A DNA stretch of 64,000 nt from Gimesia chilikensis (GTDB lineage: Bacteria > Planctomycetota > Planctomycetia > Planctomycetales > Planctomycetaceae), in NCBI RefSeq assembly GCF_007744075.1, contig NZ_CP036266.1, positions 2,527,748 through 2,591,747 of the forward strand, in the 5' to 3' direction. Numbering within the stretch: position 1 is the stretch's first letter; the number at the start of each line of letters is the position of its first letter. Positions 14,324-34,272 of the stretch are shown here, in pieces. The translations under genes were made by a program, and so were the position numbers. The notes under the pieces are model-generated. The model did no database searches and had not been told where the DNA came from. It was given only the letters and a program-made list of their open reading frames with translations.

Positions 14324-15757
14324 ATGTTCTCTACACCACATATTGAAATACCCCGCACCCGACGCGAGTTCCTGGAACGCAGCGGACTCGGCTTTGGTTC
14401 CGTAGCGTTGGCCAGTCTGCTGGCGCAGGCAGAGAGCTCCTCTGCTGCGGGGGGATCAGCGCCAGTCACAGGGCCTGTTCCTCATCACAAGCCGACGGCG
14501 AAGAACATCATCTTCCTGTTCATGGAAGGGGGACCGAGCCATATCGATCTGTTCGATCCCAAGCCGTTGTTGAACAAGCTGGCAGGACAGACTCTGCCCG
14601 ACAGCTTCGGTCAGATTCTGACCGCCGCCGGGGAATCACGGTCTCCATTGCTGATCTCGAAGCGAAAGTGGAAACAGCATGGCGAAGCGGGAACCTGGGT
14701 CTCTGACTGGCTCCCCGAAATTGCGAACTGCGTCGACGATATTGCCGTGATTCGCTCCTGCTGGGCCGATGGACTGAATCATTCCTCCAGCGTCTGCCAG
14801 ATGAATACGTGTTCGCTGATCGGCGGTCGCCCTTCGCTGGGAAGCTGGGTGACGTACGGTCTCGGTTCAGAAAACAGGAACCTCCCCTCGTTCGTGGTCA
14901 TGCAGGATAACCGTTCTTCCGTTGTGAATGGTCCGCGAAACTGGGGGACCGGATTCATGCCCGCTGTGTACCAGGGAATTCGTTTACAGGAAGGCAAGCA
15001 GCCGATTCCAAATCTGAATAACCCGGAAGGTGTGACAGACGCCCGACAACGCGAAAAACTGTCGTATTTGAAATCCTTGAATCAGGGCTATGCCCGGCAG
15101 CACGCCCGGCAGACAGAGCTCGACGCACGCATCGCCAGTTACGAACTCGCTTTTCGGATGCAGTCTGAAGCCCCCGAGGCAGTCGACCTGAGCCAGGAGA
15201 CCGCAGCCACCCGCAAGTTGTACGGGATGGATCAGCAGGAAACATCGTCCTTCGGTCGGCTCTGCCTGATGTCACGCCGACTGGTGGAGCGGGGCGTCCG
15301 TTTCGTGCAGTTGTATCATGGGGCAGGCAGCAAGTGGGATGCTCATTCGGGGATCGAGAAAAATCACACCCAGCACTGCAAGGCGATGGATCTGCCTGTC
15401 GCCGGACTGATCCGGGATTTGAAACAACGGGGATTACTGGATGAGACGCTCGTGGTGTGGGGAGGCGAGTTTGGACGGACCCCCATGTCAGAAAAGGGAG
15501 ATGGCCGCGATCACAACCCGACGGGATTCACCATGTGGATGGCCGGCGGCGGGGTCAAAGGGGGACAAACCATCGGGGCCACTGATGAGCTGGGGCTGCG
15601 GGCGATTGAAGATCGGATGCATGTTCATGATCTGCACGCCACGATTCTGCATCTGCTGGGCCTGGACCGGATGAAACTCACGTACGAATACAACGGCCGC
15701 CCCGAACGTCCCACGGTCAATGAAGGTGAGTTCCAAACGAAGCTGGTGACTGGTTGA
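14324..15757 (+). CDS. DUF1501 (sulfatase-like fold) exported protein
   Basis: A 477-residue protein. The ATG at 14324 follows GAGGCG and lies 8 bp after the preceding stop; an in-frame TTG at 14312 is a poorer start. A twin-arginine leader is present (RTRREFLERSGLGFG), so it is exported folded. DUF1501 motifs include IIFLFMEGGPSHIDLFDPKP near the N-terminus and LVVWGGEFGRTPMSE and GRDHNPTGFTMW toward the C-terminus, which resemble the alkaline phosphatase/sulfatase superfamily metal site. It is the constant partner of DUF1549/DUF1553 proteins and closes this operon. The biochemical role is not established. Confidence 0.9.
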   Translation: MFSTPHIEIPRTRREFLERSGLGFGSVALASLLAQAESSSAAGGSAPVTGPVPHHKPTAKNIIFLFMEGGPSHIDLFDPKPLLNKLAGQTLPDSFGQILTAAGESRSPLLISKRKWKQHGEAGTWVSDWLPEIANCVDDIAVIRSCWADGLNHSSSVCQMNTCSLIGGRPSLGSWVTYGLGSENRNLPSFVVMQDNRSSVVNGPRNWGTGFMPAVYQGIRLQEGKQPIPNLNNPEGVTDARQREKLSYLKSLNQGYARQHARQTELDARIASYELAFRMQSEAPEAVDLSQETAATRKLYGMDQQETSSFGRLCLMSRRLVERGVRFVQLYHGAGSKWDAHSGIEKNHTQHCKAMDLPVAGLIRDLKQRGLLDETLVVWGGEFGRTPMSEKGDGRDHNPTGFTMWMAGGGVKGGQTIGATDELGLRAIEDRMHVHDLHATILHLLGLDRMKLTYEYNGRPERPTVNEGEFQTKLVTG

Positions 15758-15766
15758 GCTGACTAT

Positions 15767-15807
15767 TTAAACAAGGGGGCATCATCAGTGGAGATCCCCT
15801 GGTTTAA
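15767..15807. terminator. Bidirectional hairpin terminator between convergent genes
   Basis: TTAAACAAGGGG pairs with CCCCTGGTTTAA (12 bp, one mismatch) across a ~17-nt loop. It lies between the DUF1501 stop and the DUF1552 stop and could serve both strands. Confidence 0.6.
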
Positions 15808-20026: not shown

Positions 20027-23000
20027 TCAGTCACTACCAGTCAGAGTAAAAGCTGCCCAGAAGAAGGGGTGGGCGGCTCCGTTGCGTTCCTGTCGTGATT
20101 CAATGCGGTTGAGTTGCGCCTGCCGTAATGCTTCTGATTTGGTTTTTCCCGCAGCCAGATGTTCAAAGAAGTCCTTCATTAAAAAGGCGGTCTGGCGATC
20201 TTCGATTTTCCAGAGGCTGGCCACAACACTGTTGACGCCGGCTAGCTGAAATGACTGCCGGAGTCCTGCAACGCCTTCTCCGTTGTTGATCTCACCCAGG
20301 GCTGTATCACAGGCACTCATCACTACCAGGTCGGTGTGTTCCAGATCTGTTTCCAGAATTTCCGCCCCGGTCAACACACCGTCTGAACCTGAAGTGGATT
20401 CATTAAAGCCTGCGAACAACAGGCCTGACCTGAGCAGCGGGTTATTCAACTCAGTGCGAGGCTCGGAGTCGAATGTGAACTCACTTGTTGTGGCATTGTT
20501 GTCACTGGGCAGGAAGATGCCATGCGTGGTCAGCACCATGATTTCGGGTGAGGAAGCTTTTTTTACTGCCTGTTCGGTCGCCTGCTTTCCGGTCAGGACG
20601 ACAGGCGGGCGTCCACAAAGTTGATTGATGGCAGGTGTGATACTGGCGGCTTCTGCAGCAGCGAACTTCAGACGTGGTACGGGGCTGAAGTTCTTGAAAA
20701 TTGCGGACCCTCGCGTCTCAATCGCGGGGGGAGCAGGGGACTGATCAGGGGCTGAAACTTTCGTTTCAAAATCCGGGTCTGCAACAATCAGCGGTGCATT
20801 TGCGGAGGCAGTTTCGTCTGATGGAAGCAGATCCCGTCCACTGACCACCAGGCGGAGCTGATGTGATTTGATTAACGGTTCTCCCTGGACGGAAAGTGCT
20901 GCCCAGGGGACGAGCCAGAGTGAGGCATCGGGGCTGATGATGATATTTCGGGACTGTTTCACACTGTCCGGCAGAGGGGACCAGAGCTTCTGGCTGATCT
21001 GCTGGAGTGCGGCGTTGCAGGCTTCTGTCGCTTTCGCTTCCCCCTGAGAGACGATTAAAGTAACGCTGCTTTGCAGTTCTTGTGAAGCGGCATTGATCTG
21101 GGCATCAATAGGACCCGCTGGGCCGATGTCGATGATTTGCACCGGTTCCTCCCCGGCCGAGGTGATCCAGGCCACATAGCGGGATTCTTTGCTCTGATCA
21201 TCGCTGAGCTCTGCGGGGATCTGCAGGCGGATGAAGTCAATCAGGACCGTCTCCGGTTTTAGTACCTGCTGCACAGACTGATGTGTTACCCAGGCCTGGC
21301 CAGACAGCGCCTGGTCCGCTTTCAAGTTCAATTCGGATTTGAGGCGTGTAATACGATCATTGATTTCTGAATTTCGGGGAACCTGACTGCCGACAGCAGA
21401 TGCGGCCTGAATTCCTGTAATCGCTGCATCGAGCTTCTCCAGGCGTCCTGTCTGGGCTGCGATTCGGTGCAGGCGATGTTGTAACGACAGTGCTTCATGG
21501 GAGGTTGCTTTTCCGTTGATCATCCACTCTGCAGATTGTTTTATGGATGCAGACTCTGCCTGTTGCTGCCACGCCATGGCCAGGGACTGGTGCAGAGACG
21601 GGCGGTCCTTCCGGTTCAGGTAACTTAACTGATGTGTATCACTCAGGAATGGCAGCTGCTCCCTGATATGGCGGCGCGATAATCGGCGTGCCTTGTCGCT
21701 GGATTCCAATGCCACATCAACCTGACCGGACACATATTGATATTGCGCCAAATCGGAAAATGCCTGGACGGTCAGGGGATGTGCGCCGAGGTCCTGGCTG
21801 GCGATTTCACTGACTTCCTGCGCCAGGGACAATGCTTGTGCCAGTTCGTTTCGTTGCTGGTGGATCCGTGCTATCAGTAAGCGTAATTGTGAGACCTGCT
21901 GGTGTCTGAGTCCCTGAATGGGCATCCGTTTCTTCAATGCCTGTTCGCAGTTTTCGAGGGCTGCATCAAGTTGCCCCTGTTTCAGGTAAACGCGGGCAAT
22001 GGTGGAGAGGGTGATCGCGGCATACAGTGGACGGTTCTGCTGCTCAAAACTTTTTAATGCGCGTTGCAGATGAGGCAGCGCCTGTGTCAGCTTGTCTCGG
22101 TGAAGCAGGTCTTCGCCTAAGCGGCGGTAGGCATCTGCTGCTCCCATGGAAAACTTCTGCGGACTGTTCTGATAGAGCTTCACACTCCGTTCGAGATAAT
22201 CGGAGGCGCTGGGATCGCCAATCGCGCCCAGTCCAAATCCGAGTGCACTGTAATAGGACGCGACCGTAAGGGAATCGGTTCCGCCCGCTGCTTCGGCGAT
22301 CTCGACGCCTTTGCGAAAGTGAGCCAGCGCACTGGCGTGATCTCCCGCTTGAGAACAGAGGTAACCAAGCTGGGAATGTGTGAGAGCGGTTTGCAGATTG
22401 TCTGCAGGGAGTTGTGCGGCACGAATTGCCAGTGCCCGTTCCAGCAAAGTTCTGCCCCGGGTTGGTTCTCCTAACAGAAATTGATTCCAGCCGGCGTCAT
22501 GCAATAGGCTGGCTGTGCCGAGATGATCGGTTCCATAATGTTGTTCATAAAGAGGCAGGGCCTGCTCCCATTCTTTAGCGGCTTCCCGTCGCTTGTCCTG
22601 CGAGATCAGGACCTGTCCCAGTAGATTATGCGTCAGCCCTCGGGCCTGGCCGCTGATCTGATCCGTGGGTAATTCCAGAATTGTTCGATAGAGGCGCGCC
22701 GCTTCAGCGGAGCGATTGAGACGCTGCGCGATTGCCGCCTGATCTGACATGACCAGAAAGGCGGTTTCGGTCTGCGTCAGTTGATTCGTTTCAACCAGCT
22801 TCCAGGTTTTCTCTGCATACTTTTTCGCCAGAGGATACTTGCCGGCCCGGATCAGGGAGGTCACGATTTCACGATGTTTCCTGATGTTTTCGGCCGGGGC
22901 AACCTGGTAAATCTTGTCGTAAAGATCAAACAGTCGCTGATAGTTGTTTAAGGCATAGTCTTGATCGATATCGAGGGCAAAGCGGGCTGCCAGATGATAG

Positions 23001-23629
23001 GCACCCGCCAGAGCAGGGCTGTTGGGAGCGAAGAGGGCTTCCTGGGTGGCGACTGCTGTTTCAATCTGCTTACGTCCTTCGGCTGTCTGTCCCGTCATGG
23101 CTGTCAGCCAGCCGACCGCGATGAGTTCATTGAGCGTCTGCGGATGTTCGTCGCCGTAGAGGCGGCGATGCTCCTCAACGGACTCTCGGGCGGCTTTGAG
23201 GGCTGGCTGATACTGTTTCTTGCTCGCCAGCTTTCTCACCTGGGTGGCTGCAGCGTCGGCCTGTCGTTTCCATTGTTGTGCCTGTTGGGGATCCAGTTGA
23301 CGCACCTGCAAATGAGTTCCCTGTGTCCAGCCCCGCTTCGAGGAACCAGGAATTTTGATCAGCAGCCAGCCCTGATTCTCCTGGAAGCCCCAGACGGTGC
23401 TGCCCTGCTTCAGACGGGTGACGACCTGCTTTCCTTCGTAGACGTCCGCGGTATTATCAATCACTACATATTGCTGAATGGTTGGCTTGTTCTCCTGGGC
23501 CAGCAATGAAACGGGTAATGTCAGCAGGAGTGCCTGGCAGAGAATTCGCAGTAAAACTGAGTTTGGGGAGAGAGGTGTCATCGCTTCGATCTTTTCTTTA
23601 AGGAGATATATCGGGCTGATGAGTTTCAT
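20027..23629 (-). CDS. Exported SH3/TPR protein with C-terminal CHAT peptidase domain
   Basis: A protein of about 1,200 residues. The ATG at 23629 is chosen; a TTG lies two codons upstream and another ATG at 23581 would also give a signal peptide (LLRILCQALLLTLPVSLLAQ). After export come a small SH3-like domain (GSTVWGFQENQGWLLIKI, then RGWTQGTHLQV) and a long array of TPR repeats (~120-700). A CHAT domain forms the last ~350 residues. The catalytic His is in LTTHGIFLP (near 1036) and the Cys in VVMSACDTALGE (near 1107), 71 residues apart. It ends with the conserved HPFFWAAFTLTG. CHAT proteins are caspase-like cysteine peptidases. It is the last gene of an operon of three, 46 bp after the SH3-TPR gene. 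Confidence 0.9.
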   Translation of the reverse strand: MKLISPIYLLKEKIEAMTPLSPNSVLLRILCQALLLTLPVSLLAQENKPTIQQYVVIDNTADVYEGKQVVTRLKQGSTVWGFQENQGWLLIKIPGSSKRGWTQGTHLQVRQLDPQQAQQWKRQADAAATQVRKLASKKQYQPALKAARESVEEHRRLYGDEHPQTLNELIAVGWLTAMTGQTAEGRKQIETAVATQEALFAPNSPALAGAYHLAARFALDIDQDYALNNYQRLFDLYDKIYQVAPAENIRKHREIVTSLIRAGKYPLAKKYAEKTWKLVETNQLTQTETAFLVMSDQAAIAQRLNRSAEAARLYRTILELPTDQISGQARGLTHNLLGQVLISQDKRREAAKEWEQALPLYEQHYGTDHLGTASLLHDAGWNQFLLGEPTRGRTLLERALAIRAAQLPADNLQTALTHSQLGYLCSQAGDHASALAHFRKGVEIAEAAGGTDSLTVASYYSALGFGLGAIGDPSASDYLERSVKLYQNSPQKFSMGAADAYRRLGEDLLHRDKLTQALPHLQRALKSFEQQNRPLYAAITLSTIARVYLKQGQLDAALENCEQALKKRMPIQGLRHQQVSQLRLLIARIHQQRNELAQALSLAQEVSEIASQDLGAHPLTVQAFSDLAQYQYVSGQVDVALESSDKARRLSRRHIREQLPFLSDTHQLSYLNRKDRPSLHQSLAMAWQQQAESASIKQSAEWMINGKATSHEALSLQHRLHRIAAQTGRLEKLDAAITGIQAASAVGSQVPRNSEINDRITRLKSELNLKADQALSGQAWVTHQSVQQVLKPETVLIDFIRLQIPAELSDDQSKESRYVAWITSAGEEPVQIIDIGPAGPIDAQINAASQELQSSVTLIVSQGEAKATEACNAALQQISQKLWSPLPDSVKQSRNIIISPDASLWLVPWAALSVQGEPLIKSHQLRLVVSGRDLLPSDETASANAPLIVADPDFETKVSAPDQSPAPPAIETRGSAIFKNFSPVPRLKFAAAEAASITPAINQLCGRPPVVLTGKQATEQAVKKASSPEIMVLTTHGIFLPSDNNATTSEFTFDSEPRTELNNPLLRSGLLFAGFNESTSGSDGVLTGAEILETDLEHTDLVVMSACDTALGEINNGEGVAGLRQSFQLAGVNSVVASLWKIEDRQTAFLMKDFFEHLAAGKTKSEALRQAQLNRIESRQERNGAAHPFFWAAFTLTGSD

Positions 23630-23681
23630 TGGCAACCAATGTTTGTGAGTCCTGTTTGAACGAGCGGCTGATTTTTATCTC

Positions 23682-25202
23682 TTAGTCTGCTGGTGGCTCG
23701 TTTCCGGGCGTTGCGTTTAACGCGGCGAGATTCTGTTGCGCCTGAATGGTTGCCCGATGATCGGCCCCCAGTGCTTTCTGGTTAATTTTCAGCGATTGAG
23801 AGAGCAGTGGTTCTGCCTCTGATTTCTTTCCCTGCATTCGATACAGGTTTCCCAGTCTTCCGAGCGCGACAGCAGTAGCAGGATGTTCTGCGCCCCTGGT
23901 TTTTTGAGTGATTTCCAGAGCTTCCTTAAAGTAAGGCAGTGCCTGGGAATATTCTTTCCTGGCATAGTAATAGTTCCCGAGGCTGTTGAGCGAATAAACC
24001 AGGTCGGGATGCTGTTCATCCAGAGAGTCCCGACGGATCTCCAGGTTTTTCAGCATGAGTTGCTCAGCCTCGGAATACTTGTCCAAATGATCAAAGATCA
24101 TGACCAGATTATCGCGCAGGATTGTGGTTTGCAGATGATTTTCTCCCGTCTCGCTGGAGACGAGTTCCAGGCACTTGAGGAAGATCGGTTCTGCTGCCGC
24201 ATACTTTTCCTGCATCACGTAAATCCGTCCGCGCTCATGTAAGGCCTTGACCGTCTCGGGATGCGTTTCTCCCAGGGACTTTTGGCGAATAGTGTGACAC
24301 TGTTGCATATGTTGTTCTGCCTGGGGATAAGCCTGCATCTGCAGATAGAGTTTCGCCATTTTGTCATGCACAACTGACGTTCGATAATGATCTTTCCCAT
24401 AATTCTGAGTCATCACAGACAGGATCTGCTGATAAAGCGTTTCTGCCTGTTTGTATTTTTCCATCGCTTCATAGAGGGACCCCAGGTTAATCATCGCGGA
24501 GACGGTTCCCTGGTGCTTTGGCCCCAGTTGTGTTCGGGCCAGGTTGAGGCTTTCCTTGAGCAGTGGCTCAGCCTTGGAATAGCGTTTCAATGTTACGTAT
24601 AGCGATCCCAGGTTATTGAGTGAAGCCGCTGTTTCAGGATGAGCATTCCCGAAGACCTGTCGACGAATCTCCAGGCATTCTTCCGTGTAGGAAGTGGCTT
24701 TTTCCAGGTCCTGCAGTTCGTGGTAGGCGACTGCGGGAAAGGACATGACGGATGCGGTATCGGGATGATATTTTCCGTGGACCGCTTTTACCTGTTCCAG
24801 AGCCTGTAATCCGAGTTGCACTGCCTGTTCGCGATCCCCGCTGGAATACAGCTTCATGGCTGCGGTGTATGTCTCTTGTGCTGACTTGATTTTCTGCATT
24901 TGCTCTGCGGTTAACTGAATGGGGCTGGCCTGGTCGCGGGAGATCCAGCCGTGCAGCTGGGATTTTGGATCCTTGACCTCATACCAGTTTTCAGTCGTGG
25001 CAAACGCCCAGAACCGGTTTCCCTGTTTGACTGTTCTTAAAACTTTCGCATCCTGACTGCGATCGACTTTGATTTCTGCCTGGGGCGTGCCGACGATCAG
25101 CATTGGCCCTTCCGCAGACAGGGCAGGGCGAGTCAGCACAACACACAGCAGTCCGATCAAATAACCTGTAAGAATCAGTCTGGTTGTTTTCGTGGCTTGC
25201 AT
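23682..25202 (-). CDS. Exported SH3-like/TPR repeat protein
   Basis: A 506-residue protein started at the ATG at 25202, which gives a signal peptide (LILTGYLIGLLCVVLT, then RPALSAE). A frame extension to 25271 is less likely. An N-terminal SH3-like domain (residues ~30-90: GNRFWAFATTENWYEVKD, then HGWISRD) matches those of both CHAT neighbours. About eight kinesin-light-chain-type TPR units follow, with repeated cores such as HPETAASLNNLGSLY. There is no catalytic domain. It looks like a peptidase-free version of its neighbours and may act as a scaffold, adaptor or substrate for the CHAT proteins. It lies between the FlgO-like gene and the CHAT gene in one operon. Confidence 0.85.
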   Translation of the reverse strand: MQATKTTRLILTGYLIGLLCVVLTRPALSAEGPMLIVGTPQAEIKVDRSQDAKVLRTVKQGNRFWAFATTENWYEVKDPKSQLHGWISRDQASPIQLTAEQMQKIKSAQETYTAAMKLYSSGDREQAVQLGLQALEQVKAVHGKYHPDTASVMSFPAVAYHELQDLEKATSYTEECLEIRRQVFGNAHPETAASLNNLGSLYVTLKRYSKAEPLLKESLNLARTQLGPKHQGTVSAMINLGSLYEAMEKYKQAETLYQQILSVMTQNYGKDHYRTSVVHDKMAKLYLQMQAYPQAEQHMQQCHTIRQKSLGETHPETVKALHERGRIYVMQEKYAAAEPIFLKCLELVSSETGENHLQTTILRDNLVMIFDHLDKYSEAEQLMLKNLEIRRDSLDEQHPDLVYSLNSLGNYYYARKEYSQALPYFKEALEITQKTRGAEHPATAVALGRLGNLYRMQGKKSEAEPLLSQSLKINQKALGADHRATIQAQQNLAALNATPGNEPPAD

Positions 25203-25271
25203 GATAACCTCGCATTCTGAGAGTGTGTTTTCAGGAGACGAACTCGGTGAGATGACTCCGCAGCATCTCAT

Positions 25272-26651
25272 TCAGGGGCGATAATAGGTGATCGTAACCG
25301 ACATGACGGGCGTGGGATCAGCCTGGAACTTCACTGTTTTGACTTTGTTATCCGTTTGTGCGCCTTGCACGATCAACCCACCGCGGGTTTCCGGTTGTTT
25401 TTTTCCGGCCAGGCGAATCTGAGACTTCAAGGCTCCCAGATTTGCCGGTTGCTCTTCAGGCTGAACTCCTCGCAGCATGGCAACCAGGTCCTGTTCATCT
25501 TCATTTAAAATCGTGGGTTGGGGTTTGGCTTGCTGGAGTTCCTGAAAGACGGTCATCTGGATCTGGCCGGTGTGCCGTCCGTAGTCCATGGCACGTCTGG
25601 CCGATTCTGCTTCCGAGAGAACCTGAAACTGCTCGGCCGTATTGTCATCTTTCATCTGATACCCCTTGACTACGGTCCGTGTGTGATCGGGGGAGAGAAT
25701 CCATTTGTTGCAGTCAAGGTCCCGCTTGACCTGACGATACAGTGTGTTTTCGCCGTTGACTTTGAGCACGATCCCCAGACGCCCTTTGGCGGAGCTGTTA
25801 CGAATCAGTGCCATTTCGACTTTCTGGCCCTCTTCCGGTTCAGCGACAAACGCCTGACCGTCTTTCATTGTGACGGGCACCTTCCGGCCGTCATAAAAGA
25901 TTTCAAGTTTTACGGGAGCCGCGGCGTCCATTAACGGGAATGTGTCCTGCTGCTTTTTCACGCGGGCGGCTGTGTTCAGAATCTGCTGTTGTTTCTGTTT
26001 CTGCTGGTCGTTGAAGGACAGCTGTGTCGAACCGCCGTCAAAGGCGCCACGCAGGAAGAAGCTTTCTCCGATGCCTCCGATTGACTCAGCATCCAGGTCG
26101 ACATCAAAGACTTCGCAGGCCCGCTCTAATTTTCCGTTTGCTTTATCAAAACAGAGAATGCCGACCGAAGCACGCTGGTTATCATCATGCACCAAAACGA
26201 TGCCTGTCAGAAAAGCATCGGCTGCCTTTTTCTCTTTGCCCCATGCCAGTTTGAATTCAGGACCAAAAAATGCCTGGCGCCCTGCTTCCGTTAAATGATC
26301 AGCGTCTTTGAGTTCAGCGGCTTGTGCGCTTGCATCCTTGATGATGTTGAGCTGGCGAGCTTCATCAAAGGGATTTGCCAGGATCAATCCGACTTCCAGG
26401 CGATCTGCGAGTAGAGAATTCAGAGCACCCGCACTGGCGGTGATTTTCTCGCCCGGCTTTTTGACACGGAACTTCAGAACTCCGACGGTTTTGAGTTGTC
26501 GCTGATTGAGATAGTCGATGACCTGGGGGATCTGTTTCTGGAGTCCCTGTTGAATGGTCTGGGCCTGGCTCATTCCCGGCACGACCATGGTTGTTATCAA
26601 CGCGATCAGGAGTGTGAATGTCATTTTCATGATGCGGGCCTGGTATTTCAT
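25272..26651 (-). CDS. Exported protein, FlgO/CsgG-like N-terminus, in the CHAT operon
   Basis: A 459-residue exported protein with signal peptide FTLLIALITTMVVPGMSQA (an internal ATG at 26630 is an alternative start). The first ~180 residues (QLKTVGVLKFRV, LNSLLADRLEVGLILAN) recall FlgO/CsgG-like domains, which often accompany bacterial caspase-like proteins. A second beta-rich region (~255-370: KLEIFYDGRKVPVTMKDG, VEMALIRNSS, GIVLKVNGENTLYRQ) resembles stress-response or surface-interaction domains linked to DUF4384. The C-terminus may be another small beta domain. It is first in the operon with the TPR and CHAT genes (its stop abuts the next frame) and is preceded by ECF-type promoter B. 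Family assignment is tentative; export and operon position are clear. Confidence 0.72.
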   Translation of the reverse strand: MKYQARIMKMTFTLLIALITTMVVPGMSQAQTIQQGLQKQIPQVIDYLNQRQLKTVGVLKFRVKKPGEKITASAGALNSLLADRLEVGLILANPFDEARQLNIIKDASAQAAELKDADHLTEAGRQAFFGPEFKLAWGKEKKAADAFLTGIVLVHDDNQRASVGILCFDKANGKLERACEVFDVDLDAESIGGIGESFFLRGAFDGGSTQLSFNDQQKQKQQQILNTAARVKKQQDTFPLMDAAAPVKLEIFYDGRKVPVTMKDGQAFVAEPEEGQKVEMALIRNSSAKGRLGIVLKVNGENTLYRQVKRDLDCNKWILSPDHTRTVVKGYQMKDDNTAEQFQVLSEAESARRAMDYGRHTGQIQMTVFQELQQAKPQPTILNEDEQDLVAMLRGVQPEEQPANLGALKSQIRLAGKKQPETRGGLIVQGAQTDNKVKTVKFQADPTPVMSVTITYYRP

Positions 26652-26711
26652 GCTAAGTTAGTTCCCTATGCGTTCATTGAAGAATGAGAGTGAGTCGTTC
26701 ACTTTCTACAC

Positions 26712-26742
26712 TGTAAACGACTCAGAATCGTAAATCTTCCCG
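26712..26742 (-). promoter_or_regulatory. Predicted ECF sigma promoter B (FlgO-like/TPR/CHAT operon)
   Basis: On the minus strand the site reads CGGGAAGATTT, 9 nt, AGTCGTTTACA. Spacing between GGAA and CGTT is 17 nt, normal for ECF promoters (-35 GGAA, -10 CGTT/GTC). It shares 22 identical positions and exact spacing with site A at 33390-33420. It lies 60 bp upstream of the start at 26651. Confidence 0.72.
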
Positions 26743-26945
26743 TCATTTCTGAATTTTCTGGAATCAGCGTCCGCTGCCTGTGGTCTGTAGCTTCAGACAG
26801 CCGGTCCTGGATTGAGTCGGTGCCAGAAAGTACTTTATGAGACAGAGGTTAAGTCTGTTGTTTAAAATTACAGTTAGAGTGGATTACAATCGAAAATGTG
26901 ACCGCGATTGACTCTTGTTGTGGTTCAGACAGACGTGATTCACGT

Positions 26946-29900
26946 TCAACGACTTTCGTTTTTACCTGTATGTGTAAACGCGGCCCAGAAGAATGGATGA
27001 GCGGCTCCATTCCGATCGCGGCGGGCCTGGATGCGTTTGAGTTGCGCCTGCCGGAGTGCGGTCGATTTTTTCATTCCCTGGGCGAGATTGGAAAAGTATT
27101 CTTCCATCAACAGGGCTGTTTCCTGATCGGGGATACTCCAGAGTGATGCGACGACGGATTCTGCACCGGCCAGTTGGAAGGCCTGTCGGAGTCCTGCAAC
27201 ACCTTCCCCCGAACGGATTTCTCCAACGCCGGTTTCGCAGGCACTGAGTACGACCAGACGCGTTCCACGCAGGTCGGTACTGATGATTTCCAGACCGGTC
27301 AATACGCCGTCATCTTTCTGTTTTCTGAGGGCTTCCGGCCGGTTGTTGCACCCGGCCAGCATCAGGCCGCAACGGAGCAGAGGGTTGACTGCTCCCTCTT
27401 GATTCGTCGGATAGGTCTGCACCATCCGCGACATCTGATTGAGGGCGGCTGTCCGCAGGGCTGCCAGGTCGGGATCGATGGGCTCTGTCTGTTCGGTTGT
27501 GTCTTTTTTCTCTGGCGTAGATGGCTTCGCCGAAGCAGATTCTTTTTTGCTGCTATCTGCCTTCTTGAGCTTCAGGCCGGTGGCGTCCATCTGTTTCTGA
27601 TAATGGTCCCGCTGCTTGGGATCGTTCAATTTATCGAATACCTGGTAGAGACGATAATAGGAACCGAACATCAGTTTTTTGTTTTCCGGCGAGATTTTTT
27701 CCCTGATTTCAACAGCACGTTGCAGTTCGGTGGCCGCTTCCTGATAGCGTTCGCGGCGTTCCAGAAACTGACCGAGCAGACTATGGGCCAGGGCAGTCCG
27801 TTCGGATTCCGCCCCATAGACTTTTATTCGCAGGGCCAGATTGTCCCGAAAACGTTTCTCTGCTTCGGTAAACTGTTGATTCGATTCCAGTAGCCGGGCC
27901 ATCTTCAGGTCAGCAGCAATCGTATTGATGTTTTCCAGTCCGTATTTCTCTTTGTAGTATTTGATCTGAGCTTCCCGGGCTTCACAGGCGAGGGCGTAGT
28001 CATCTGATTTTTCGGCAGCGCTGATTAACAGAGAGCGGATGGTATGCACGGCTTTCTCATTGGGGCCCCGGACCCGGGCTCCCATGCGCCAGGCCTGCTC
28101 ATAAGCGTTCGTTTGCGCCTGGTAATCTTTCAGGGAACCGCAGAGGCTGGCCAGGTTCTTGAAAGCGTACATGGTTTTTGTGCTTGAGCCGTCATTCAAC
28201 AATCTGTAATCCAGCTGAAATTCATAGTAGGGGCGCGCTTCTTCATAACGTTTCAGGGCCCTCAGAATCCGGCCTGAAAGTCGGGCTGAGTTGAAAGTGG
28301 CTATCCCATTTAAGCCCTGGATTTCGTTACAGATTTCAAAGGCCCATTGGGCGGGGACCAGGGCTTTCTGATACTCTTTGGCCTTGTAGGATTTGTTAGC
28401 AGCATTATAAATTCTGGCTGCATGGTAGAGTGCTTTTTTCTGTTCCAGGCTGACGGCAGCTTCATCGGGCAGGAAGAATCCATGCGTGCTCAAGACGAGT
28501 ACTTCGGGGCTGCGGATCGATTTGAAAGCGGCCTCCGTAGCCTGGGCTTCGGTCAACAGACGTGGGGGACGCGTGTATTTGCTGATGGGGGGCGCAATTC
28601 TCAAGGCTTCCTGGGCCGTGCCGGGCAGCAGATTGACCGGTCCCAGCTGTAAGCCGGGCTCTGGCTGCTCGGTCTGACTGAGTCCGAACAGATTGTAATC
28701 CGGATTGGCAAAGATGATGGGAGCCGTCACACCTGAACTAGGGCTTTGGCGATCTGCCAGCAGTTCCCGTCCGGAGACAACAAAGCGAAATTCAAACTGT
28801 TCGACGGCGAAACGATCTTTCTCTAGCGGGAGTGCCGCCCAGGGAACCAGCCAGAGCGAGGCGTCTGGAGATAGAATGACCTGCTGCACGTTGGTTAAAT
28901 GCGGGAGCAGAGGTTTCAGTGTCTGCTGACATAGTCCCTGCAGCAGTTTTTGAGTCGCCGCGGTCGCCTGTGATTCGCCGGTCTGCAGGGTTTGAGCGGC
29001 CCCTTTCTGAATGGATTGCAGTCCCGTCCGTAGAGTGGCTTCGATCTCCGAGGCAGAGCCCAGGTCAATAGTTTGGATGCGACCTTTTCCAGTGGGGGGA
29101 ATGATCCAGGCGGCGTAGCGGTGTTTTTCAGCTTGAGCACCATCTTCGTTGATCGTATAGGGAGTGATGCGCACAAATTCCACCAGCACGGAGTCTGAGG
29201 GCAGTTGTGCCCGAATCTGTTTCAGGGTGACCCATTCGCTTCGATTGAGTTCCGCATCGGCAAGACCCAGCTGCTGGATCAGTGTCTGTTCCTGGCGATT
29301 CAGCGCATCCAGCCGAGCCTGTTTCTGCTGTTCGTTGAGATCGGATTTTAATGCCAGGGATGCCAGTTCGCGTCGAATGGCAAACAGGTTTTCCGCAACC
29401 GAGCGGGCGGCTCCTTTGAATTGTCGTAATAGACGCTCGTGGCTGGAGAGGGTTTCCTGAACCAGGGCTTTGCGGTTGAGAATCGCTTCCAGGCTTTTTT
29501 CCATCAGGTACTCGTTATCGCGCTGCGACCACATGATGCCCAGGGCCTGTTGATACTGGTGGGCATCATAGCCGGTGAGAAAACGGAGCTGCTCCTTCTG
29601 GCTCAAGCCGGGCAGCACTTTGTCGGTAAAGCGTTTTGAAATGCGGCGTTGACGATCGAACGCGTCCGCAGCCTCATTCCAGTTTCCGGAATGCGCTTCC
29701 ACCACCGCCAGCATACCCAGGACCTGGGCCAGCTCGCGGTCATCCGAATTCTTTCTGTCTGCAGTCTGTCCCAGCTGCTGGTAAATATTAAGAAGTTCCC
29801 GCAAGCTGCGCGCCGCCACTTCCCGGTTGCCATTCCTGTATTCCTGGGAGGCCAGCTGATACTGAAGCATTAACGTCTGGGGGTGATGTAAGCCCTGGGT

Positions 29901-31028
29901 GCGTTGGGATGCGGCTAATGCTTCCCGGGTGAGTTGAATCGAAGTCTGGTCATCGCCGGTCAGGAGGGCGATGGCGGAAGAGGTTTTGATATACAGCGGG
30001 TGATCTTTGCTGAACTTGCGCTGCACCAGCGGCATGAGTTCTTTGCTCAGTTTGATGGCCTGTTCCCATTCCCCGCTCTGTTGTAACAGCAGCATCAACT
30101 CATATTGAACTTCGATGTTGTCGGCACTTTCTCCACGGCCCGCTTTGCGATTCGTGAGGATGATTTCTTCATACAGTTTACGGGCTCCGGAAACATCTTC
30201 CAGTACATACAACACCCCCGCCAGTTGCCGTTTTCCTGAGAGCGTTTCTTTATGTGAGGGACCAAATGCTTTCGTACGCAGTTGAACCGATCGTTCGATC
30301 AGAATGCGGGCCTGGGTGATATCCCCCTGGCGTTCATACATGACTCCCAGGTTGGCCAGTACCGTGGCCTTACCTTCGATATCATCCGGGAAGTTCCGTT
30401 CGCGAAGTTTGCTGACCCGTTCCAGAGTCGTTCGTGCGTCCCGGTATTGTGCGGCCCGGAACTGAATCGCGGAGAGCATTTCCAGGGCGCGCACCGTATC
30501 CAGATGGTCTTCGCCTTTCCAGCGTTCCAGTATGGGTAATGTCTCTTTCAGAATGCGGATGCTTTTGAGGTACTCGCCTTTTTTATCCAGTTCAATCCCG
30601 TAGTTTGACAAAGCTGCTGCGGTGTCGGGGTGATTCGATCCGTAGACCTGCTGCAGGTTCTGCCAGACTTTCTGCTGGGCCTGATGTCTTTCAGCGGAAT
30701 AGGTCGTCGATTTGATGTTCTCGATCTGCTTGAGTAGTTGAATTACTTCTTTCAGGAGTTGTTTCTGCTGATCGGTTTGTTTCGGGGTTTGATGATCGGC
30801 CAGGGGAATCCAGCCTTTTTCGTTGAACTCGGGATGTTTGACCCAGGTCCATTTGCCCTCGGTTTTGAACGCCCAGACTGTCTGTCCCGGTTGCAGGGCA
30901 GCGATGCTCCGGTTTTCTACCCGGAGACTGGTGGGCTTTGTAATCACCACCAGCTGTTCGGCTGAGGCAGACTGGAGCAGCATCGTTCCAATTAATAGCC
31001 CGAAGATAAGTCTCGAGAGCAATTTCAT
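26946..31028 (-). CDS. Exported SH3/TPR protein with CHAT peptidase domain split by a TPR insertion
   Basis: A 1,360-residue protein. Signal peptide about 1-23 (LIFGLLIGTMLLQSASA), an SH3-like domain at 25-80 (GQTVWAFKTEGKWTWVKH), and TPR repeats to about 500. A coiled segment and then the CHAT domain follow. The catalytic His is residue 849 (VLSTHGFFLPDE) and the Cys is residue 1264 (VVLSACETGVGE), 415 residues apart. The extra ~340 residues between them are more TPR units (RYEEARPYYEFQLDYR, RRERYQEAATELQRA), then a Lys/Ser/Thr/Glu-rich linker. The CHAT C-terminus ends HPFFWAAFTHTG. Both catalytic residues are intact. Its own promoter was not found; it lies 107 bp after the cytochrome gene and may be co-transcribed with it. 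Confidence 0.9.
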   Translation of the reverse strand: MKLLSRLIFGLLIGTMLLQSASAEQLVVITKPTSLRVENRSIAALQPGQTVWAFKTEGKWTWVKHPEFNEKGWIPLADHQTPKQTDQQKQLLKEVIQLLKQIENIKSTTYSAERHQAQQKVWQNLQQVYGSNHPDTAAALSNYGIELDKKGEYLKSIRILKETLPILERWKGEDHLDTVRALEMLSAIQFRAAQYRDARTTLERVSKLRERNFPDDIEGKATVLANLGVMYERQGDITQARILIERSVQLRTKAFGPSHKETLSGKRQLAGVLYVLEDVSGARKLYEEIILTNRKAGRGESADNIEVQYELMLLLQQSGEWEQAIKLSKELMPLVQRKFSKDHPLYIKTSSAIALLTGDDQTSIQLTREALAASQRTQGLHHPQTLMLQYQLASQEYRNGNREVAARSLRELLNIYQQLGQTADRKNSDDRELAQVLGMLAVVEAHSGNWNEAADAFDRQRRISKRFTDKVLPGLSQKEQLRFLTGYDAHQYQQALGIMWSQRDNEYLMEKSLEAILNRKALVQETLSSHERLLRQFKGAARSVAENLFAIRRELASLALKSDLNEQQKQARLDALNRQEQTLIQQLGLADAELNRSEWVTLKQIRAQLPSDSVLVEFVRITPYTINEDGAQAEKHRYAAWIIPPTGKGRIQTIDLGSASEIEATLRTGLQSIQKGAAQTLQTGESQATAATQKLLQGLCQQTLKPLLPHLTNVQQVILSPDASLWLVPWAALPLEKDRFAVEQFEFRFVVSGRELLADRQSPSSGVTAPIIFANPDYNLFGLSQTEQPEPGLQLGPVNLLPGTAQEALRIAPPISKYTRPPRLLTEAQATEAAFKSIRSPEVLVLSTHGFFLPDEAAVSLEQKKALYHAARIYNAANKSYKAKEYQKALVPAQWAFEICNEIQGLNGIATFNSARLSGRILRALKRYEEARPYYEFQLDYRLLNDGSSTKTMYAFKNLASLCGSLKDYQAQTNAYEQAWRMGARVRGPNEKAVHTIRSLLISAAEKSDDYALACEAREAQIKYYKEKYGLENINTIAADLKMARLLESNQQFTEAEKRFRDNLALRIKVYGAESERTALAHSLLGQFLERRERYQEAATELQRAVEIREKISPENKKLMFGSYYRLYQVFDKLNDPKQRDHYQKQMDATGLKLKKADSSKKESASAKPSTPEKKDTTEQTEPIDPDLAALRTAALNQMSRMVQTYPTNQEGAVNPLLRCGLMLAGCNNRPEALRKQKDDGVLTGLEIISTDLRGTRLVVLSACETGVGEIRSGEGVAGLRQAFQLAGAESVVASLWSIPDQETALLMEEYFSNLAQGMKKSTALRQAQLKRIQARRDRNGAAHPFFWAAFTHTGKNESR

Positions 31029-31135
31029 TCAATCACCCGACTTCAACCTGGTGTAAACAGAAATGTCTGGGAAAACTGTGAACACGATTAATGTAAAACA
31101 ACGGACCCGCAGGCTTAGCACTGAAGACTCAATCG

Positions 31136-33334
31136 TTACCTGGTTTCGATACTGATTGTTTTCTTTATCAGCTGGCTGGGATTATTTATGAGCCGATGCT
31201 GGTCGTCATCAAAACGGTAGAAATCGTGAACGAAGCGATCGTTGACATTCTTCCCCCGCAGCAAAACCCCGGGACTGAATTGTTGGGGGCTGGCAAAGAC
31301 GGTAATGAATTCGGTACCCAGTTGCGGTTGAATTTTAATCGAACCGGTTTCCGGGAAACGATATACGCTGCCATTTTTTAAGGGCAGCACCTGTTTGGTT
31401 AAAGCGACTTTGCGACCTCGGGCGCTGGTGCCTACCAGTTCGATAAACAGATCGACGCCGGTTTCATTTTTGATGGTGATCACCATCTCGTCGCCGGGCG
31501 AAAACAGATTGCTCTTCTGATTGGTGCTCACTTTCAGGTTCCGCGCCAGTCCTTCGGCTAAATGGTCCGGACGAGTCAGACCATCGACGGCAGCGATGGG
31601 AGTGCCGATACCCAGCTGGCGTACGACCCGGTCGTAATAGTCCTCCCAGGTATCGCGGCGGATTACACCGCCGGTGGATAAGCCTGCCAGGCCCAGTTGT
31701 GTGAACTGGGGAAGCTTGAATACCGCATTCAGCTGCCCCGGTTCTTTGAGGCCCAGTTCGCCGGCGGCCTGGGTGAGCGTTAGTGGGGCATCGATGAATT
31801 TACGGGTGGTGGCGGTTAAGGGTTCATTTTTCACGTTGCCTCCCAGAGCTGCCTGCATGGCGGACTGGAAGCGTGCTTCATCCTTATCGAGCAACTGGTC
31901 CATTTCCTGCTTGGGGATGTAGAGGCGTAGAATGTCACGTGTGTTCAGGCCGGTGTTATTCGGCAGTGCCTGAAATGCAGGGCGGATATTGTCAGAAAAA
32001 CGTTTCATTCCCCGGTCGTGACAACGCATGCAGGCCAGTCCGTTACGGACGACTCTGTCTTCCGAGAATTTGTCGGTGACGATTGTAGTGGGGGCTTCCA
32101 GGATGCGGTTGCCTGCGTTGTCGGTGACCAGATAGGCCTGCAGCCCGTTGGGCAGATTCCAGATCATCTCGCCGCCAGCATAATGAAAATCGAGCGGGTC
32201 GGCGAACATGTTCTGCAGACCTTTGCTGGTCTCGAAATCAAAGCTTTTCCAGTAGGCACCGTCTCGAGAAGGGTGCCGTTCGACAATGCGATTGTTGCGC
32301 GAAACACCGGAGAGCGTCATGCCCGCCCGGCTGGCAATAAAGTTCTGCAGGTTTGCTTCACTGTCGACGCCGATCATCTGTTCGAGCTGACTCAATTCAT
32401 GCGGCAGTTCGAGAAGATCTTCATAGAGTGGCGATTGGGTGGCGACGCTGATCAACCAGTCAATGCGGACATAGGGTACCGGTCTGATCAGGCCGGCCGG
32501 CTGGAGGTAGACCTCCCGAAGTTGTTCGAATGTCTCTGCGTTTTCATAGGCGATGCCATACGGGTATTCGAGCAGGACCATATCGAACTTGTCGACGTTG
32601 GCGTTGCCGGGCAGCTTGTGAGGTGAAACGGGGGTCACGACCGATTCATGCCAGCCCAGTTTGCGAATATCAACGGCGAAGATCGTATTAGTATCCGGAT
32701 CGACGGCAATCGGTTTGACGATGTCGGGCTGCCAGGACAAGTGGTTCAACGCTTTGGTCAATGCAAATTGCTGTTCGCGCAGTTCTTCTGCAGTCGCACC
32801 TGCGGTCAACAGGTGGTTGCTGCTGAAGAAACGCAGAAACGGACGGTCAGCGCGGGGTGTGGCTTCCACGAATTTCAGGATCTGCTTTAAGACAAATTCA
32901 GTGCCGATGGTATTGGCAAACGCGGGATCCTGACTCGCTTGAGCAGGGACGGCAACATCTTCAGGAAAAGCAGGGGCTTTGGCTTCGATCCATTTGCGGA
33001 CGATTTCAATTTCTCCCGCACTGAGCGGCGGCCGCGGTGCTTCCGGCATACGGAAGTCTTCATCATCGGAAGCGATGTAATCGTAGAGCACGGATTCATC
33101 GACATTGCCCGGCACGACGGAGCCTGCTGCACCGACAAACGTGCTCAGGTCGAGAATATTGATGTCTGCTTCCCGACGCGTGTCTCCGTGACATTCCAGG
33201 CAGCGTGTGCGGAAAATCTGTTTGACTTCCGCTGACAGGTTTTCTTCCTGTGCCCTGACCGTCATCGTTAAACAGGACAAAGATATGGCAATTAGAGACA
33301 GTAATTTCCACGGGTTTGACCGGCTGCGGCTCAT
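31136..33334 (-). CDS. Exported c-type cytochrome with DUF4384-like C-terminal domain
   Basis: A 732-residue exported protein. The signal peptide is about 1-28. A PSCyt1-type heme site CLECH is at 45-49, followed by DEDFRMPEAPRPPLS as the probable distal Met region. A second CxxCH (CMRCH) lies at 435-439. Residues ~610-700 (FSPGDEMVITIKNETGVDL, FIELVGTSARG, GSIKIQPQLGTEFITVFAS) match the pattern of DUF4384, a domain usually found beside bacterial caspase-like peptidases. The protein precedes a CHAT gene by 107 bp and has ECF-type promoter A 55 bp upstream. A role passing redox information to the CHAT proteins is inference; the cytochrome motifs are seen directly. Confidence 0.8.
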   Translation of the reverse strand: MSRSRSNPWKLLSLIAISLSCLTMTVRAQEENLSAEVKQIFRTRCLECHGDTRREADINILDLSTFVGAAGSVVPGNVDESVLYDYIASDDEDFRMPEAPRPPLSAGEIEIVRKWIEAKAPAFPEDVAVPAQASQDPAFANTIGTEFVLKQILKFVEATPRADRPFLRFFSSNHLLTAGATAEELREQQFALTKALNHLSWQPDIVKPIAVDPDTNTIFAVDIRKLGWHESVVTPVSPHKLPGNANVDKFDMVLLEYPYGIAYENAETFEQLREVYLQPAGLIRPVPYVRIDWLISVATQSPLYEDLLELPHELSQLEQMIGVDSEANLQNFIASRAGMTLSGVSRNNRIVERHPSRDGAYWKSFDFETSKGLQNMFADPLDFHYAGGEMIWNLPNGLQAYLVTDNAGNRILEAPTTIVTDKFSEDRVVRNGLACMRCHDRGMKRFSDNIRPAFQALPNNTGLNTRDILRLYIPKQEMDQLLDKDEARFQSAMQAALGGNVKNEPLTATTRKFIDAPLTLTQAAGELGLKEPGQLNAVFKLPQFTQLGLAGLSTGGVIRRDTWEDYYDRVVRQLGIGTPIAAVDGLTRPDHLAEGLARNLKVSTNQKSNLFSPGDEMVITIKNETGVDLFIELVGTSARGRKVALTKQVLPLKNGSVYRFPETGSIKIQPQLGTEFITVFASPQQFSPGVLLRGKNVNDRFVHDFYRFDDDQHRLINNPSQLIKKTISIETR

Positions 33335-33389
33335 GCCTCACCTCTCTTGAATTCTCAGGTTGTGACAGTTCAAAACGGGTAGTTATCAA

Positions 33390-33420
33390 TGTAAACGACT
33401 GTCCGTTCAAAATCTTCCCG
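33390..33420 (-). promoter_or_regulatory. Predicted ECF sigma promoter A (cytochrome/CHAT unit)
   Basis: The minus strand reads CGGGAAGATTT, 9 nt, AGTCGTTTACA, identical to site B at 26712-26742 outside the 9-nt spacer core. The -10-like CGTTTACA ends 55 bp before the start codon at 33334. The remaining ~390-bp divergent gap (33335-33727) holds site C and a weak CCCTG/CAGGG hairpin near 33579. Confidence 0.75.
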
Positions 33421-33629
33421 GGTCTTTCCATTTTTTAGAAGAATTCATTCAGTGCCGGCCAGAGGGCTCTGCCTCCTCTCATTCTCCAACTGGATCGAAA
33501 ACTGAGGCAGCGGACCTGCACCATTAGAGTGAGGGACTTTATTTCATCTGCCTGTTGACTGTGATGCATCGAAATATCCCCTGTTTTTCAGGGTTTGGGG
33601 AATCATTTTGTTTCTTTGAGGAAAATCGC

Positions 33630-33654
33630 GGAAGAAATCTGACGCGTGCCCGTT
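33630..33654 (+). promoter_or_regulatory. Possible ECF promoter C upstream of the small-gene/sigma unit
   Basis: On the plus strand GGAAGA is followed by CGTT with the same 17-nt GGAA-to-CGTT spacing as sites A and B. The bases after CGTT differ (CTCC rather than TACA). It lies 73 bp before the start at 33728 and could autoregulate the sigma factor region. Confidence 0.35.
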
Positions 33655-33727
33655 CTCCTGTTGAAAGCCGGAACAATGCTGAGTCTGGCAGACAATTGAA
33701 TCAATTTTATTTTTGAAAGGGAGAACC

Positions 33728-33940
33728 ATGTCCAATCTCATCACATTCGTATTGGATCTGTCCATGATCGTCAGCGGAGTGGGAATCCAGAAAGATCTCA
33801 GTGATCTGCATCTGGATGCAGACTGCAACCCATCCGAAATTCAGATGCTGGAAAACACCGTGAACTGGGACGACAACATCATCCATCAGGGAGTCGATGT
33901 CGACGAAAGACTGCTGGAAAAGTACAGCAATCTCGTTTGA
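33728..33940 (+). CDS. Small hypothetical protein beside the ECF/CHAT locus
   Basis: A 70-residue protein starting MSNLITFVLDLSMIVSGVG. An AAGGGAG ribosome site precedes the ATG at 33728; an upstream TTG at 33713 is not needed. The first 20 residues are hydrophobic but lack a basic start, so it is not a clear signal peptide. The rest is strongly acidic (about 15 Asp/Glu). No family recognised. It stands first in a run of four co-directional genes leading to the sigma factor. Confidence 0.6.
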   Translation: MSNLITFVLDLSMIVSGVGIQKDLSDLHLDADCNPSEIQMLENTVNWDDNIIHQGVDVDERLLEKYSNLV

Positions 33941-34002: not shown

Positions 34003-34272
34003 ATGTTTAATATGAAACTTCTCAAAACCGCTTTACTCTGTACCGCTGGCCTGGTACCGCTTTCAGCCGGGCAGGTTGCCCAAGCCCGTTCCTACGCTCA
34101 ACCGCCGGTGCGGTGCGTGATGAAGCCGGTTGTGACCTACCAGTTTCAGAAGCGACGTTTTACGCATTTTGTCACACGGTACGACCACTTTGGCAGACCG
34201 TACCGGGTCAGGCAGGTTTGTTACAAAACCGTCCGCGTTCCCGTGACGACCTGGGTTCGCGTGTGTTACTAG
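34003..34272 (+). CDS. Small exported Arg/Tyr/Val-rich protein
   Basis: An 89-residue protein with an AGGAG ribosome site and a clear signal peptide (LLKTALLCTAGLVPLSAG, cut near AQA). The mature ~60 residues are basic and carry Arg/Lys, Tyr and Val in alternation (FVTRYDHFGRPYRVRQVCY), with three Cys that could form disulfides. It resembles small exported planctomycete proteins of unknown function. It lies 62 bp after the acidic small protein and 110 bp before the ECF sigma gene, so it may be a target or sensor in that regulon. Confidence 0.7.
   Translation: MFNMKLLKTALLCTAGLVPLSAGQVAQARSYAQPPVRCVMKPVVTYQFQKRRFTHFVTRYDHFGRPYRVRQVCYKTVRVPVTTWVRVCY

Follow-up and report, generated by a model that had tools for sequence, protein, structure and literature searches.

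The window analysed here is a stretch of 64,000 nucleotides (nt) from Gimesia chilikensis (NCBI RefSeq assembly GCF_007744075.1, contig NZ_CP036266.1, positions 2,527,748 to 2,591,747 of the forward strand). It carries a locus in which the gene of an extracytoplasmic function (ECF) sigma factor overlaps that of a putative membrane anti-sigma factor, here called ASF, and lies beside genes for a cytochrome c-type protein and two caspase-like CHAT proteins (Table 1). Two identical bipartite elements, CGGGAAGATTT-N9-AGTCGTTTACA, precede two transcription units of this locus and were taken for ECF-type promoters in an initial annotation made from the sequence alone. Both are exact, lie on the minus strand and end 55 nt (promoter 1) and 60 nt (promoter 2) before the ATG codons of the 732- and 459-amino-acid (aa) proteins. 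The ECF gene, placed by the same annotation about 1 kb away, starts 962 nt beyond promoter 1, the nearer of the two copies. The pair is real but incomplete, since the ECF operon itself is preceded by a further, more diverged copy.

Table 1. Features of the locus; positions are those of the window. Domains are Pfam families.
Feature	Position	Strand	Sequence or domains	Remarks
Promoter 1 (predicted)	33390..33420	(-)	CGGGAAGATTT-N9-AGTCGTTTACA; exact match	Before the cytochrome/CHAT1 unit
Promoter 2 (predicted)	26712..26742	(-)	CGGGAAGATTT-N9-AGTCGTTTACA; exact match	Before the FlgO-like/TPR/CHAT2 unit
Promoter 3 (predicted)	33628..33658	(+)	GCGGAAGAAATCTGACGCGTGCCCGTTCTCC; position weight matrix match	Before the ECF operon; overlooked in the initial annotation
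Cytochrome, 732 aa	31136..33334	(-)	PSCyt1; two CxxCH motifs (residues 45, 435)	Probably exported; signal-peptide-like N-terminus by eye
CHAT1, TPR-CHAT caspase-like	26946..31028	(-)	CHAT in two stretches, TPR_12	Probably exported
459-aa protein	25272..26651	(-)	No Pfam family	'FlgO-like' in the initial annotation; signal-peptide-like N-terminus
529-aa SH3/TPR protein	23682..25271	(-)	TPR_12, SH3_3	
CHAT2, TPR-CHAT caspase-like	20027..23635	(-)	CHAT, TPR_12	Probably exported
70-aa open reading frame	33728..33940	(+)	No Pfam family	First after promoter 3
89-aa small protein	34003..34272	(+)	No Pfam family; YDHFGRPY motif	Between promoter 3 and ECF gene; signal-peptide-like start
ECF sigma factor, 195 aa	34383..34970	(+)	Sigma70_r2 (E 9e-15), Sigma70_r4_2 (E 6e-12)	
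ASF, putative membrane anti-sigma factor, 292 aa	34970..35848	(+)		Overlaps ECF gene

In the complete genome (8.29 Mb) promoters 1 and 2 are the sole matches to CGGGAAGATTT-N9-AGTCGTTTACA with up to 3 mismatches, where a uniform expectation gives 0.04 (about 1e-6 for exact matches). The pattern read backward has no match in the genome, and 100 shuffles of the window gave no match to the forward pattern. The genome-wide search that the initial annotation had called for thus returned these two sites and no random scatter.

The motif was then compared with the ECF gene across 17 genomes of the same genus, an orthologue being a protein of at least 70% identity or the genome's own copy. Seven of the 17 carry the motif with up to 3 mismatches, and the same seven carry an orthologue of the neighbouring ECF gene (Fisher test, 5e-5, uncorrected for kinship; in four of them, G000, G005, G006 and G014, the ECF proteins are at least 97% identical over most of their length and lie in the same locus). 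The remaining ten have neither motif nor orthologue, and all of them match other ECF genes. A 3-mismatch match on contig C86 of G015 was rejected as a further member, since about 0.6 such matches are expected over the 17 genomes.

The three sites of the window share the core GGAAGA-N15-CGTT (equivalently GGAAG-N16-CGTT), which also precedes the ECF gene in all seven same-genus loci, twice in L039 and L041. Since the site before the ECF operon has this shared core, the sigma factor probably controls itself too, and we suggest that its operon carries a promoter recognised by its own product. The genome contains seven exact GGAAGAW-N14-CGTTYNC sites, three of them those of the locus. Outside it, GGGGAAGATCCCCACCAGGTTTCCGTTTTCG at genome positions 3757160-3757187 scores 20.5 with the position weight matrix (PWM), compared with 22.2 for promoter 3; it overlaps a long antisense reading frame and is a possible extra target. 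Of the remaining three sites of this form, two score 15.7 and 13.9 and one lies on the minus strand.

The strongest evidence comes from other genera. We collected 51 loci that encode ASF (793 kb; five genomes of the family with ASF matches, G037, G038, G133, G162 and G165, were left out of the set) and counted the two halves of the core at all spacings from 5 to 30. At spacing 15 the core occurs 57 times, in 32 loci, while each of the other 25 spacings yields 0 to 10 matches; the controls at spacing 15 found 3 matches with the halves swapped and 1 with them reversed. Of the 57 core sites, 27 are intergenic, although the crude gene caller used for this assigns only about 9% of the sequence to non-coding DNA. 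An ECF gene lies adjacent to ASF or overlaps it in 43 of the 51 loci, and in 19 of these 43 the 700 nt preceding the ECF gene contain the core at spacing 15. There, spacing 11 gives 4, three spacings give 1 each and the rest none, as does the reversed core. With 10 matches in the loci overall, spacing 11 is second only to 15; it may be a second class of sites or related loci counted repeatedly. Chance was rejected as the source of the sites on the genome-wide uniqueness, the spacing spectrum and the uniform expectation.

The bipartite -35/-10 layout, the fixed spacing and the CGT in the -10 half are those of an ECF-type promoter, and here the initial annotation is supported, the core recurring at this spacing in loci of other genera that share the adjacent gene pair. 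Its label needs a qualification in the -35 half, which is GGAAG: the letters conserved in the PWM are AAG, not AAC. According to passages of PMC8103513, AAC in the -35 was an early ECF hallmark that later versions of the classification dropped as a requirement. The core is not a generic ECF site, a possibility we rejected because 22 loci around unrelated ECF genes from the same genus (76 kb in all) do not contain it on either strand; no exact core lies upstream of the 17 of these 22 genes that tblastn could place. The same loci bear on whether promoters 1 to 3 belong to another of the genome's ECF factors, the neighbouring one regulating something else. The genome has 25 matches to the neighbouring ECF protein at E<=0.001, itself included, and cross-recognition among ECF factors is known. 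Yet the ten genus genomes lacking the orthologue keep many other ECF genes and no motif, and with the core also missing from the unrelated loci we regard a different factor as very unlikely.

Orthologous loci show which parts of the sites are kept. The promoter 1 site is found before the orthologous gene without change in L037, L038 and L040 and with 1 mismatch in L042; the promoter 2 site is likewise exact in L037, L038 and L040 and has 1 mismatch in L039 and 3 in L041. The order of the genes varies. In L042 the cytochrome and FlgO-like genes follow one another behind a single site, and in L039 and L041, which have no cytochrome gene, one site precedes the FlgO-like gene and chat1. When gene order changes, the site precedes whichever gene is first. 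Conservation is confined to the two blocks, as the initial annotation had expected of such a comparison: the 9-nt middle diverges between orthologous sites, both of the cytochrome (window and L042) and of the FlgO-like gene (window and L039). In L040 the ECF gene of G014 is split in two frames (15198-15781), by a frameshift or an assembly error, and the three promoters are intact. Two distant loci, L034 (9001-15748) and L035 (6958-16983), have cytochrome, FlgO-like and CHAT genes together; in the stretches examined they have neither a match to the ECF orthologue nor a site at up to 5 mismatches.

This comparison also tells against a single promoter region copied during rearrangement of the locus, with the identity of the pair due to recent duplication instead of to constraint by a sigma factor. 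The 22 identical positions are well above the core of about 10 (GGAAGA, CGTT) kept across genera, and hence the identity exceeds what the family-wide core needs; the single unit of L042 with its one site moreover shows how the split of an operon could have duplicated a promoter. However, the middle and the flanks differ between the two window sites, each type of flank being common to its own orthologues, and in other genera the core is kept at one spacing and in L105 stands before other target genes. We therefore consider recent copying an improbable account of the identity, and agree with the initial annotation that the blocks are those of a sigma factor target and not of a copied sequence. 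A copying event may lie behind the pair; the blocks are nonetheless under constraint.

An imperfect inverted repeat with 11-bp arms (10 of 11 pairs; 26692-26702 and 26713-26723) includes the -10 half of promoter 2. It is kept in L037, L038 and L040 and absent in L039 and L041. Since one site thus holds half of a repeat, and since the core is not found in every ECF/ASF locus, the blocks could be an operator to which some other regulator binds, such as an activator or repressor that covers two turns, with the ECF gene as a bystander. We give this little credence: the core is not palindromic, it has the -35/-10 content and separation of ECF promoters, it tracks the ECF/ASF pair across genera, and the repeat is missing in two loci that keep the site.

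The sigma factor and ASF are read here as a putative sigma/anti-sigma pair. The sigma factor consists of region 2 and region 4_2 only, and so belongs to the ECF (group IV) proteins; its relatives in PDB are SigL, SigE and SigW, and among the best 25 NCBIfam models the general one for the ECF superfamily is alone in scoring above its cut-off. ASF has a single predicted transmembrane (TM) segment near residues 146-164. The most hydrophobic window of 19 residues is central in 26 of 27 aligned members, and two cysteines of the C-terminal part, C223 and C246, are invariant in all 27. A profile of 7 orthologues finds ASF in 35 of 170 genomes of the family; in a sample of 397 genomes of the class, 50 have it. 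We suggest from gene order and predicted topology that ASF acts as the anti-sigma factor of the neighbouring sigma factor. Two small reading frames stand between promoter 3 and the ECF gene. The first has same-length counterparts with a similar C-terminus in L042, L039 and L041. The YDHFGRPY motif of the second is elsewhere mostly YDHCGxPY, and 16 of the 43 other-genus loci have a counterpart upstream of their ECF gene (antisense control, 0), by a motif pattern written after about ten examples had been inspected.

Both CHAT proteins are caspase-like of clan CD by sequence, with Pfam CHAT matches of E 4e-65 and 2e-70 and the His and Cys motifs. In CHAT1 these are THGFF at 848 and SACET at 1262, and a TPR block between them splits the CHAT domain; its orthologue in L039 has the same split layout. 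In CHAT2, whose listed start is the first TTG and whose true start is probably internal, THGIF at 1037 and SACDT at 1107 are 70 residues apart. Inspection by eye showed signal-peptide-like starts in CHAT1 and CHAT2, in the cytochrome and FlgO-like protein, and in all six Peptidase_C14 (C14) proteins examined.

The same gene families recur behind the sites of other genera. In the loci 90 sites score at least 13 with the PWM (12 with the reversed PWM), and among the 61 genes downstream of them are 13 with Sigma70_r2, 11 with the caspase domain C14, 9 with FGE-sulfatase and 7 with PSCyt1. Among 110 genes drawn at random from 565 others of these loci (590 less the longest) there are 3 with C14 and at most 2 with PSCyt1 (Fisher test, 8e-4 for C14 and about 0.01 for PSCyt1). 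Three C14 genes (two full FGE fusions and one partial) and a PSCyt1 gene each have their own site in L105. Over 46 genomes, with each tandem copy counted as one match, at least 24 of 165 C14 matches fall inside 49 ECF/ASF loci where 0.38 are expected (in 13 loci), and 7 of 127 CHAT matches where 0.29 are expected (in 5 loci), that is, about 60 and 24 times over expectation. Homologues of the cytochrome at E<=1e-20 lie inside the loci in 17 of 87 cases, with about 0.2 expected by base share and at most 24 candidates scored per genome. In nine of 17 tblastn homologues of the cytochrome (PSCyt1) in the loci the upstream site scores at least 13.9, and the reversed PWM at most 10.7. Contig C8 of G166 (L095 and L169), which carries one ECF/ASF pair, has nine C14 matches within about 23 kb, and the one member scanned with Pfam is an FGE fusion. 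PSCyt1 homologues also lie within a few kb of C14 genes on contigs outside the collected ASF loci (G203:C38, G187:C125, G259:C226).

Several observations weigh against an ECF/ASF pair controlling these genes. The exact core is missing upstream of the ECF gene in 24 of the 43 loci; among 43 complete C14/CHAT genes that lie within the loci or next to them, it stands directly upstream of 7 (1 of 15 for protease genes elsewhere) and immediately before none of the six complete CHAT genes. Protease genes without a core of their own may be transcribed from genes further upstream, or in some other way. The label 'anti-sigma' rests on adjacency and topology because ASF has neither a Pfam family nor a convincing PDB relative: the best PDB matches with two profiles have E 0.07 and 0.14, a profile of 27 rows gives nothing below 0.1, and NCBIfam and PADLOC have no family for it. 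In addition, positive charges N-terminal of the TM segment exceed those on the C-terminal side in just 17 of the 27 members. The PWM tests are uneven. A PWM from 11 genus sites finds 43 sites scoring at least 17 in the 51 loci and none when reversed, but some of these 11 came from a PWM refined on the loci later scanned. A PWM of the five first sites reaches 25.3 over the loci, compared with 16.8 reversed, and is weak upstream of the 43 ECF genes, where 15 reach a score of 10 and the reversed PWM gives 3 (none of 200 column-permuted PWMs gives more than 7 at this score). At scores of 14 and 16 antisense matches number 4 and 3 and sense matches 4 and 2, some of the antisense ones probably belonging to divergently transcribed genes. 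With this PWM, unrelated ECF loci score up to 16.2 (14.0 reversed). As the PWM tests are thus limited, the exact-core spacing test is the main evidence.

Weighing these points, we put at about 0.86 the probability that the three sites are promoters of the neighbouring, stress-type ECF sigma factor, and that this factor and ASF form an autoregulated switch driving exported caspase-like proteases and the cytochrome. The regulon would be mainly local, with three presumed units: the cytochrome and CHAT1; the FlgO-like protein, the TPR protein and CHAT2; and the operon of the two small reading frames, the sigma factor and ASF. In the resting state ASF would keep the sigma factor bound through its cytoplasmic N-terminal half, with its one TM segment as the anchor. 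With the arrival of a signal, perhaps redox, on the extracytoplasmic half with its invariant cysteine pair, the sigma factor would be released. The freed factor would then activate the three promoters, its own included, in a positive loop, so that the caspase-like proteases and the cytochrome c-type protein would be made and exported.

By the signal-peptide-like starts and the predicted topology of ASF, the proteases would be in the same compartment as its outer half. The exported caspase-like proteases (CHAT here, Peptidase_C14-FGE elsewhere) might also act as a trigger, cutting the outer half of ASF under the control of the cysteine pair and the PSCyt1 cytochrome. We rate this extension as unlikely. 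If true, redox or envelope damage would start a self-amplifying caspase circuit, an extracytoplasmic counterpart of the Csx29-Csx30-CASP-sigma relay that is independent of CRISPR.

To our knowledge, how bacterial caspase homologues are switched on is largely open. This signal recurs in other genera at genes for caspase-like proteases and cytochromes, which suggests a widespread control circuit for bacterial caspases. Its predicted promoter is defined at the level of sequence, and a sigma factor and a putative anti-sigma family go with it. Candidate members of such regulons can now be picked out by sequence, and testing the control of caspases directly becomes a simple matter. A literature search by titles and the starts of abstracts found no paper that treats such a promoter, or exported caspases together with an ECF/anti-sigma pair, in planctomycetes; this search did not extend to the main ECF classification or to a paper on planctomycete ECF factors, and the ECF group may already have been described.

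The promoter set itself is of a well-known kind, and what is new is its coupling to caspase-like proteases. Like autoregulated ECF/membrane anti-sigma systems of the E. coli RpoE-RseA type, the locus has a sigma factor of regions 2 and 4, an overlapping gene for a putative partner with a single predicted TM segment, a conserved bipartite predicted promoter also before the ECF operon, and a presumed small local regulon. Unlike them, it has GGAAG in the -35, a partner family with no relative in Pfam or PDB, and caspase-like and PSCyt1 proteins as the presumed targets. A second likeness is to the caspase-domain proteins with variable partners that Kaur et al. 2021 (PMC8195603) describe beside ECF sigma genes, in EACC/TRADD-N neighbourhoods; the passages of that paper concerned give no promoter and no such membrane partner. 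A third likeness is to type III-E CASP. As passages of PMC10028731 describe it, this system combines an ECF factor (CASP-sigma) with Csx30 as its inhibitor and with the TPR-CHAT protease Csx29, and the locus has three predicted sigma sites. In type III-E CASP (Craspase) signalling the TPR-CHAT protease is bound to Cas7-11, and Csx30 is its substrate. In our search with PADLOC six proteins had no match to Csx29 or Csx30 (Cas7-11 or a CRISPR array elsewhere was not searched for), and the profile search of PDB linked ASF neither to Csx30 nor to another protein of solved structure, so that such a relation was rejected (the presence of Csx30 in PDB was unchecked). With no match to a Csx model, no convincing PDB relative of ASF and proteins that appear exported, we do not claim membership in type III-E CASP. 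The present locus differs from that system in the signal-peptide-like starts of its CHAT proteins and in having a predicted membrane protein as the inhibitor candidate. Nevertheless, both systems bring together an ECF sigma factor, a putative inhibitor, a TPR-CHAT protease and three predicted sites in one locus, and the proposed circuit thus parallels the CRISPR-linked Csx29/Csx30/sigma relay.

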